Source of the DNA: Methanoregula sp. PtaU1.Bin051
GTDB lineage: Archaea; Halobacteriota; Methanomicrobia; Methanomicrobiales; Methanospirillaceae
NCBI GenBank assembly: GCA_002067895.1
Contig: MVRE01000005.1
Span: forward strand, 1 to 38,525
Length of the DNA stretch: 38,525 nucleotides
Direction: 5' to 3'
Shown: piece by piece, positions 3,999 to 38,525 of the stretch
How the letters are laid out: every line of letters starts with the position of its first letter
Position numbering within the stretch: position 1 is the first letter of the stretch
Program-made: the position numbers and the translations under genes
The notes under the pieces: generated by a model
The model's input: only the letters and a program-made list of their open reading frames with translations
The model's database searches: none
What the model was told of the DNA's origin: nothing

Positions 3999-5603
3999 TT
4001 AAGCCATCGGCGTAGGTGGCGTACCAGCCGGTTTCTTGTTCTGGGTGATCATCATATCATCGACACGGACAAGCAGAGCTGCCGTCTCGGTTGCGCTTTG
4101 GATGGACTGGCGTTTGGAACGGAGCGGCTCAAACACACCTTCCTTGTGCATGTCAACAATATCGCCGGTATAGACATTCAGCCCGGCATTTTTCTTCCCG
4201 TTTGCATGGGCGTTTTTAAGGTCAACCAGTTTGTCGATAGGGTTATAACCCGAGTTCTCGGCAAGCGTTCTCGGGATAACCTCGAACGCATTGGCATACG
4301 CTTCAAGAGCGAGCTGGACCCGTCCTCCGACACTGGCTGCATAGTCCTTGATCTTCATGAGCAGTTCGGTCTCCACCGCTCCGCCACCGACGACATAGGT
4401 TCCATCCTCAATAGCATCCATGACTACACGCTTGCCATCGTTGACTGCACGCTCAAGCTCGTCGAGCAGATAATCGGAAGAACCACGAACAAGGATTGTG
4501 ATCGCTTTCGGATTCTTGCAACCGTTAATACGGATGATATCGATCTCATGGTCCTGCTCAACGGTCTCAGCTGCTCCAAGATCCTTTGACGTCAGGTTCT
4601 CGGCTTTCTGGATGATGTTGGCCGACAGAGCCTTTGATGCATTCTGCATATCGCTCTCTGGCACATCCTCAACGGCAAGCACACCGGCCTTTGCAAGGTG
4701 GAACTGGACCGGATCCGCAATGCCCTTCTGGCAGAGAACCACATTTGCTCCGCTTTCGATAATATAGTCTGCCAGCTGTTTGAGTGCATCCTGTTCCTGT
4801 GCATTGAAGGCTGCTACCTGATCTGCTGAGGAGATCTTGATTTTTGCCTTGACCTGAGTCTTGGTAATCTCTAAAGGTGTCGCGATCAGCGCAACCTTTG
4901 CCTTGGTTACCTTTCGGGGCATGCCCTCATGGACTCTGGCCTTGTCGATCACAATACCACGGATCAGCTCGGCATCATCCATGGATTGGCCGCGCTGCTT
5001 CTTGACCATTACATCGTCTTCATCGACAACCATTTTCCCGTCGGCTTTCTCAGCGACCGCCATGACAGCGTCAACGATGATCCCGTCAAGTTTTTCCTTA
5101 ACGGCTTCAATCGATTTACCGGTGATTGCAGTATCAACAATTCTGATGAGCGTCTTCCTGTCTGAAGGTTCTACTTTCAGCGCAAGGCTGTCTGCTATCT
5201 CAAGCGCTTTCTCCATCCCAAGCCGGAATCCCTGGGAAATAACTGTCGGATGGATGCCCTGTTCAAGAAGAGTCTCTGCCTGTTCCATCAGAGCCCCGAC
5301 CAGAACAACGGAGGTCGTGGTACCGTCACCAACCTGATCGTCCTGGGTTTTTGCAACCTCAATGACCATCTTTGCACCGGGGTGCTGTACCCCGATCTCC
5401 TTCAGGATAGTCGCACCATCGTTGGTGATGATGATATCCCCGGTGGAACCGACAAGCATCTTGTCCATGCCCCGGGGTCCAAGGGTTGTCCGTACCGCGC
5501 CGGCAATCGCCTTTGCTGCGGTAATATTGGAGCGCTGGGCCTCCCGCCCGTAATTGCGCTCCACATTTTCTTTTAGAATAATAATTGGCTGTCCAGCTAA
5601 CAT
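3999..5603 (-). CDS. thsA: Thermosome (group II chaperonin) subunit
   Basis: This 534-residue protein is full length for an archaeal chaperonin. [13 protein letters not shown] and NDGATIL near the N terminus and GDGTTT (~residues 93-98) form the nucleotide site; D in GDGTT is the catalytic aspartate of the family. GGGAVETEL in the second half belongs to the equatorial domain. The C terminus ends in PTPMA rather than the common glycine-methionine tail. Eight- or nine-membered double rings fold cytosolic proteins with ATP. The ATG at 5603 has GGAGA upstream and its own TATA box, so the gene is transcribed alone. The A/B paralogue number cannot be told from one gene. Confidence 0.96.
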
Positions 5604-37365: not shown

Positions 37366-37507
37366 CACCCAGAGATTGACAGCCCGGATTTTAATACGTT
37401 ATTATGTTGACTTCAGGATCCAGCCGTTTGTCATGCAGGCCCCCGGCATCAGCCGGAAAGGTGGAAAAGATTAGCAGGGAGGGGATACCCCCACCCCCCC
37501 GGCCTCA

Positions 37508-37517
37508 GGGGATCCCC
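37508..37517. repeat. Palindrome GGGGATCCCC
   Basis: Perfect 10-bp palindrome, the first of the short palindrome family in the tail region, with C runs on its right side. Confidence 0.6.
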
Positions 37518-37607
37518 CCTACCCCCCCGCCTCCAGTCCCGTTTACCCCCCCTCATTTCCCATGGCACGAGGTCGATTCCCGGCAAGCCTCCGACGAGAG
37601 CAGGGAT

Positions 37608-37640
37608 GGGTACCCCCACCTATAGCTGGAGGGTATACCC
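37608..37640. repeat. Palindrome pair GGGTACCC and GGGTATACCC
   Basis: GGGTACCC at 37608-37615 and GGGTATACCC at 37631-37640, 15 bp apart and each followed by extra C, are self-complementary. Confidence 0.6.
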
Positions 37641-37651
37641 CCCGCTCCCGG

Positions 37652-37684
37652 CTGACAGGGGGACCCCCCTCCCCCCCCTGTCAG
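37652..37684. repeat. 11-bp perfect hairpin with C-rich loop
   Basis: CTGACAGGGGG at 37652-37662 and its exact reverse complement at 37674-37684 enclose an 11-nt loop. The CTGACAGGGG part returns at about 38096, next to one of the GGTCT hairpins. Confidence 0.7.
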
Positions 37685-37730
37685 GGGTCATGGGTATGGT
37701 GACCGGCCCCCCCGCCCGGGAGAGGGGGGT

Positions 37731-37742
37731 GGGGGTACCCCC
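37731..37742. repeat. Palindrome GGGGGTACCCCC
   Basis: Perfect 12-bp palindrome preceded by another G run. A shorter member, GGGTACCC, lies at 37936-37943. Confidence 0.6.
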
Positions 37743-37935
37743 CTGTGGGCGATTTTGAGTCTCCGACGGGACTTCAACAGTCAAACCATCATTTCCGGTG
37801 GAAAATGAGGGGGTACACCCCATCGGGTGGGGGAGGGTATCCCCCCACCCCTCTGGATCGCGGACACCCCCCTACCCCCCCGGAGGGGGGTCGGCCCTGC
37901 TTAGGGTGGCACCCCCCGCTTGGGTATGGGGAGGG

Positions 37936-37943
37936 GGGTACCC
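37936..37943. repeat. Palindrome GGGTACCC
   Basis: Perfect 8-bp palindrome inside GAGGGGGGTACCCTC, the last of the GGGTACCC family in the tail. Confidence 0.55.
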
Positions 37944-38003
37944 TCTCTAAGATCGGAAAAGGGGGTCTCCTACCCAACCCCCCCGCCGCTCAGCCTGATG
38001 GGG

Positions 38004-38029
38004 GGAGGGGTCTTACCTGAGACCCCTCC
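38004..38029. repeat. GGTCT-N6-AGACC hairpin, unit 1
   Basis: Perfect 10-bp stem, GGAGGGGTCT at 38004-38013 with AGACCCCTCC at 38020-38029, and a 6-nt loop TACCTG. The core GGTCT / AGACC with a 6-nt loop recurs three more times downstream. Confidence 0.75.
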
Positions 38030-38101
38030 GCATGGCCCTTACCTAATCAATTTCTCATAAAAATCACGTCGCAGCACCCACCCGGTGCCAAATGTCTGAC
38101 A

Positions 38102-38124
38102 GGGGTCTCGTACGAGACCTCCCC
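38102..38124. repeat. GGTCT-N6-AGACC hairpin, unit 2
   Basis: The core GGTCTCGTACGAGACC at 38104-38119 is a perfect 16-bp palindrome; the middle six bases are CGTACG. G and C runs extend it on both sides, with one bulged T. Confidence 0.75.
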
Positions 38125-38170
38125 CCCTTGGTGCCACCCCCCTTACCCCCCTCCGGATTTTTTGGAAGCA

Positions 38171-38194
38171 GGGGGGTCTGAGGCGAGACCCCCC
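38171..38194. repeat. GGTCT-N6-AGACC hairpin, unit 3
   Basis: Perfect 9-bp stem, GGGGGGTCT at 38171-38179 with AGACCCCCC at 38186-38194, and the 6-nt loop GAGGCG. Confidence 0.75.
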
Positions 38195-38301
38195 ATCTTC
38201 TCCGGCCAAATGAGACCCTCTGCTGCAACCGGGCGACCGGTTGTTCGTATGGAGTTTCAGACGGTGGGTGTTGAATCGTGATTGTCCTGAAAAGCGGAGG
38301 A

Positions 38302-38324
38302 GGGGGTCTCAGATCAGACCTCCC
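38302..38324. repeat. GGTCT-N6-AGACC hairpin, unit 4
   Basis: GGTCT at 38305-38309 and AGACC at 38316-38320 enclose CAGATC; G and C runs extend the stem after a bulged T, as in unit 2. Confidence 0.75.
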
Positions 38325-38525
38325 CCCACCCTTGGCCGGATGAGACCCCCCAACCCAAAGGCATCCTCCCTTTGGCCCGGATTTTTTGCGAGAGATGGGG
38401 GAAGTAAGGGAAGGACTCTTTTCTTAGGTAATATAAAATGAGAAAGGATCGGCTCTGTAGAATTCCTCAACAAGAACCAGAAATGACAAAGTAGAGATCA
38501 TTCTTGAGAGGTTATAGAGGATCAC

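Follow-up and report, generated by a model that had tools for sequence, protein, structure and literature searches.

What are the four hairpin-like sequences that share the core GGTCT-N6-AGACC and lie close together toward one end of the window? The window is the whole stretch of DNA analysed here, 38,525 nt long, and it constitutes all of contig C5 of the genome of Methanoregula sp. PtaU1.Bin051 (G000; 2.31 Mb in 23 contigs). The palindromes, none of which is assigned a strand, are found at 38009..38024 (GGTCT-TACCTG-AGACC), 38104..38119 (GGTCT-CGTACG-AGACC), 38175..38190 (GGTCT-GAGGCG-AGACC) and 38305..38320 (GGTCT-CAGATC-AGACC), with the positions, the loops and the extension by G/C runs that the initial annotation had given them. 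These are exactly the matches to the core in the window, four in comparison with 0.06 expected from dinucleotide shuffles, and the number was reached by none of 100 such shuffles.

In the window, the four sequences form one portion of a larger non-coding repeat. It is assembled from a single short DNA motif in inverted pairs, and its copies are dispersed through the intergenic regions of a group of methanogens. It looks like undescribed palindromic repeat DNA, not structured RNA. The initial annotation knew of no such archaeal repeat, and searches of the literature, covering open-licence papers, likewise gave no description. The interpretation I consider somewhat better than even is that the Methanoregula lineage has a family of dispersed intergenic repeats that do not code for protein, that these are or once were mobile DNA, built as a mosaic of palindromes, and that the palindromes are putative sites for a dimeric protein.

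Anatomy of the element

The bounds originally drawn around the palindromes, 38004–38324, are too narrow. The element extends from about 37470 to about 38400, is non-coding and intergenic, and consists of two modules, both given on the plus strand. Module A (approximately 37470..37943, some 470 bp) has palindromes of the GGTACC or GGTATCC type and the conserved linkers CTCTCCGACGA, GTCTCCGACGG, ATTTCC-GTGGAAAA and GATCGCGGACACC. An open reading frame of 91 amino acids (37745–38020) was rejected as coding, as it lies inside the repeat and the aligned copies differ by many indels.

All four GGTCT palindromes lie in module B (approximately 37990..38400), together with two single half-sites, written ATGAGACC, and two blocks consisting of a C-run, GGATTTTTT and a G-run. 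The first single half-site, in the TGAGACCC region (38211..38218, plus strand, AGACC core at 38213), is separated from an upstream GGGTCT by 33 bp, a spacing that recurs in the copies within the same genome, and the second, in the TGAGACCCCC region (38341..38350, plus strand, AGACC core at 38343), aligns with its counterparts in the other full-length copies of module B. The alignment of copies also defines the two conserved occurrences of GGATTTTTT, at 38155..38163 (C-run before, G-run after) and 38379..38387, both on the plus strand.

Other repeats are found within and near elements of this kind. Small inserts made of two hairpins, GAAGATATC..GATATCTTC and a variable one, occur inside the element's palindrome centres in this genome and in related ones (L021, in its first 300 bases; L016, about 4759–4830; L017, about 5080; L075; L080). 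The last 75 bp of the window (38451–38525) are a contig-end repeat beginning GGCTCTGTAGAATTC, which also ends several other contigs and is probably the end of an insertion sequence or MITE.

Copies in the genome and in its relatives

A scan of G000 for GGTCT-N6-AGACC, as the initial annotation had proposed, shows the pattern to be enriched, with 17 matches as compared to 7 for a reversed control. Thirteen of the 17 fall inside copies of one dispersed intergenic element (four each on C2 and C5, one on C9, three on C12 and one on C18). The remaining four lie in unrelated sequence and look like background, because their flanks have no G/C runs.

Similarity searches, on which the copy counts rest, find one or both modules at no fewer than 11 loci in G000, some of them partial, with identities among the copies of about 70–78%. 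The two modules occur together on C5, C12 and C18. Module A stands alone on C13, C3, C20 and C23, and as a fragment at C12:60983; module B stands alone on C2, on C9 and at the end of C12. The copies of module A on C13, C3, C18, C20 and C23 are 74–78% identical and the one on C12 is weaker, while collinear copies of module B are found on C2, C9, C12 (two) and C18, and two further genomes of the genus contain homologues. In several of the G000 copies the third palindrome has degenerated. At the end of C12 (L020), different-looking sequence abuts a truncated copy of module B, a possible insertion or chimeric join.

The core was called invariant by the initial annotation, and so it is in all four copies in the window; outside G000, the same-genus homologues keep the frame but have different cores (GGTACC or GGTTC..GAACC). 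The related genus g5 mixes GGTCT/AGACC with GGTAT/ATACC, at a spacing of 5 rather than 6. The idea that the family as a whole keeps the exact core was rejected, GGTCTCNNNNGAGACC having shown no enrichment in 60 relatives. The pattern GGGGTCT-N3..8-AGACCCC is present in 11 of 108 family genomes, at 21 places versus 1 for the control, and 16 of those places are in genera g1 (to which G000 belongs) and g5, within elements of the window's kind.

What is kept in two genera, in accord with the conservation that the initial annotation asked for, is a repeat unit consisting of a single half-site, a spacer of about 90 bp with a CGTC-GGAA-TCCA-like core, and a palindrome. A covariance model of this unit (R1, 141 positions), built from 13 g5 sequences only, matches the minus strand of the window at 38168–38310 over 141/141 positions (39.1 bits, E = 8.8e-10). 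Since it was the palindrome that led to the seeds, and a palindrome by itself scores about 20 bits, approximately half of the window's 39 bits come from the spacer and half-site. R1 also matches G004 and G005. In all, 22 of the 108 Methanoregulaceae genomes contain matches, every one of them in two of 17 genera (g1 and g5), often with at least 20 matches per genome and as many as 31 or more (30 candidate stretches scored in each). A viral origin was rejected: the bare palindrome appears on 59 IMG/VR contigs, with no full unit and no score above 21 bits. Another repeat (GGTTGTACC..CTTTT-CCTCA ... GGTGAGGT..GTTACA) adjoins the element in both genera (L021, about 750–1000; L168; L222).

The same gene gap may be filled in one species and empty in another. 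In G000, the gap between the convergent prefoldin-beta and leuA-like genes is 928 bp long and holds module B; in G004 and G003, which lack the element there, it measures 43 and 49 bp (the two short lengths obtained by combining the end of leuA and the prefoldin stop from two separate searches). In G006 the same gap contains an element of about 140 bp with GGCTCTGTAGAAATC inverted ends. The histidine kinase gene neighboring the element in the window has its best two orthologues in Methanoregula MAGs (72% and 69%), and the element is absent upstream of both. The repeat is a family of multiple copies, genus-restricted, and a given gene gap may hold it in one species and lack it in another. A mechanism of mobility and a binding protein are what I infer from these observations: the element may have spread as non-autonomous mobile DNA or through recombination at its palindromes.

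Close paralogues in g5 genomes are 93% identical over 314 bp (L222/L226), 94% over 240 bp (L234/L235) and 96% over 222 bp (L262/L264), and the similarity ends inside or beside half-sites with G/C runs. Inspection by eye of six paralogue pairs found neither a target-site duplication nor consistent outer ends. The most similar paralogues are often 5–50 kb apart (L222/L226, L234/L235, L229/L231, L242/L245 and L262/L264, in G063, G069, G032 and G143), a distance that suggests local spread, local duplication or gene conversion. Insertion linked to tRNA genes was considered and dropped, as tRNAs lie near few loci only, at about the rate estimated for chance.

Several copies remain at the same gene gap in two to four related species; they may be functional or slow to be lost, or one site may have been used repeatedly. 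The gap behind tRNA-Ser is occupied in G063, G096, G069 and G143, by element sequence that diverges strongly between the species, so that turnover at preferred gaps and use by the host are both possible. When G063 copies were checked in G096 for empty sites, L220 proved occupied and L211 ambiguous, and the other flanks were incomplete. Copies retained in this way, the tRNA-Ser gap and L220 in G096 among them, are what one would expect if the palindromes bound a chromosomal protein concerned with the nucleoid or with the organization or segregation of the chromosome and were kept for the benefit of the host, and strand symmetry and fixed spacing would suit such a dimeric site. Nonetheless, I consider this explanation unlikely, given that the prefoldin/leuA gap is empty in two relatives, that R1 has no matches in most family genomes or in 15 of the 17 genera, and that the sequence in the tRNA-Ser gap differs so much from species to species.

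Half-sites, spacing and the choice between DNA and RNA

The palindromes were described initially as a fixed stem with a free loop. The pattern is there, but a pair of inverted half-sites held at a fixed spacing describes it better. In g5, close inverted pairs of the half-site (GGGTMT, inverted AKACCC) occur at a spacing of 5 bp only (55 cases), and in G000 close pairs of GGGTCT..AGACC are separated only by 6 bp (8 cases); a second peak there, at 33 bp, represents the downstream single half-site. Moreover, the half-sites vary almost independently of one another: the combinations found in 123 palindrome cores are A.T (23), A.G (21), C.G (20) and C.T (8). The core pairs beside the fixed T..A pair are Watson-Crick slightly more often than in shuffles (49 vs 39.1, sd 5.0, and 72 vs 61.2, sd 3.6), so the symmetry of a hairpin or palindrome may extend to some degree past the half-site.

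Pairs of half-sites at fixed spacing, together with single sites, have the anatomy of a predicted dimer site accompanied by single sites. On the interpretation of mobile or formerly mobile DNA, the palindromes would be recognized in trans by a dimeric protein (a transposase, a recombinase or a domesticated descendant of one), and the spacing would be the distance between its two subunits, with no need for the loop.

The same features bear on whether the element is simply decaying repeat DNA, its palindromes maintained without selection by mutation, i.e., by template switching at quasi-palindromes and slippage in G/C runs. G/C runs do dominate the element, and the copies, 70–78% identical and in several cases with a degenerate third palindrome, are mostly old. 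But mutation alone would not hold the half-sites to one exact spacing, nor are the single half-site and linker motifs, kept across two genera, expected of it, and this explanation seems to me improbable, more so than that of sites kept for the host.

The part of the initial annotation that fares worst is the RNA hairpin; a repeated unit, a protein-binding site and a recombination unit, which it also proposed, all fit the data. The stems would be required if the element encoded a non-coding RNA with a defined structure, or if untranslated regions carried it as RNA hairpins, and on either strand the consensus does fold far more stably (z of −8 to −13) than column shuffles, as is expected of any palindromes. 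A small CYCA..TGRG helix beside the palindrome has also changed in both arms (at one pair, in 25 cells), with the same symmetry of mismatches. That symmetry is instructive: RNA would favor G.U, yet across 150 aligned matches the helices contain as many G.T mismatches (46) as A.C (47), which counts against a conserved RNA, and no plus-strand excess of G.T was found in strand-neutral pairs. Mixed pairs of half-sites, such as TAT/AGA, are common, and a search of Rfam gave no family match. With respect to genes, the units in tandem gaps are oriented with the gene strand 11 times and against it 10 times (by rough gene calls); the gaps that hold units are convergent (16), divergent (8), tandem (21) or without clear assignment (12). 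Mismatch symmetry, near-independent half-sites, unpaired single half-sites and strand balance together make the RNA hairpin very improbable. The case shows that spacing and the symmetry of mismatches can distinguish an RNA-like hairpin pattern from a DNA site.

Comparison with known repeat systems

Bacterial REP/BIME/REPIN sequences, which are associated with RAYT, resemble the element in being intergenic, dispersed palindromic units with conserved linkers and mosaic arrays. When mobilized by RAYT they usually exceed 100 copies per genome. The elements considered here are archaeal and about 0.2–1.1 kb in length, and the GTAG or CGTC foot tag of REP/BIME is not consistent among them, with GTAG or GTGG preceding the palindrome in some units only (alignments read by eye). 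No Y1 (HUH tyrosine) transposase of the RAYT/IS200 type (PF01797) was found in seven genomes (G000, G004, G032, G063, G069, G074 and G143), although five of 14 control genomes were positive, and a REP mobilized by RAYT was rejected for lack of it in those seven. For archaea, PMC6006769 reports the IS200-like subclass of TnpA only, not the REP type.

Bacterial and archaeal MITEs are likewise short, non-coding and multi-copy, and fill a site in one species that is empty in others. They are moved in trans by the transposase of a related autonomous element. Unlike MITEs, the element has no pair of terminal inverted repeats to set its ends and no visible target-site duplication. Structured repeats and RNAs of the kind collected in Rfam share its many predicted hairpins but not its mismatch statistics, which are not RNA-like, and no family matched it. 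The element works like BIMEs or MITEs and yet lacks, of the features tested, RAYT and the tag of the former and the terminal repeats and duplication of the latter.

A more specific proposal, which I put forward tentatively and think doubtful as it stands, is that this is an undescribed archaeal repeat system in which the genus-specific half-site spacing of 5 or 6 bp marks the sites of a dedicated recombinase or transposase other than Y1/RAYT. With the repeat family as such, archaea, in which systems like REP/BIME are poorly described, would gain a lineage-specific family of palindrome-mosaic repeats. The sites, their spacing and their host range, now defined, point to a protein that can be sought.
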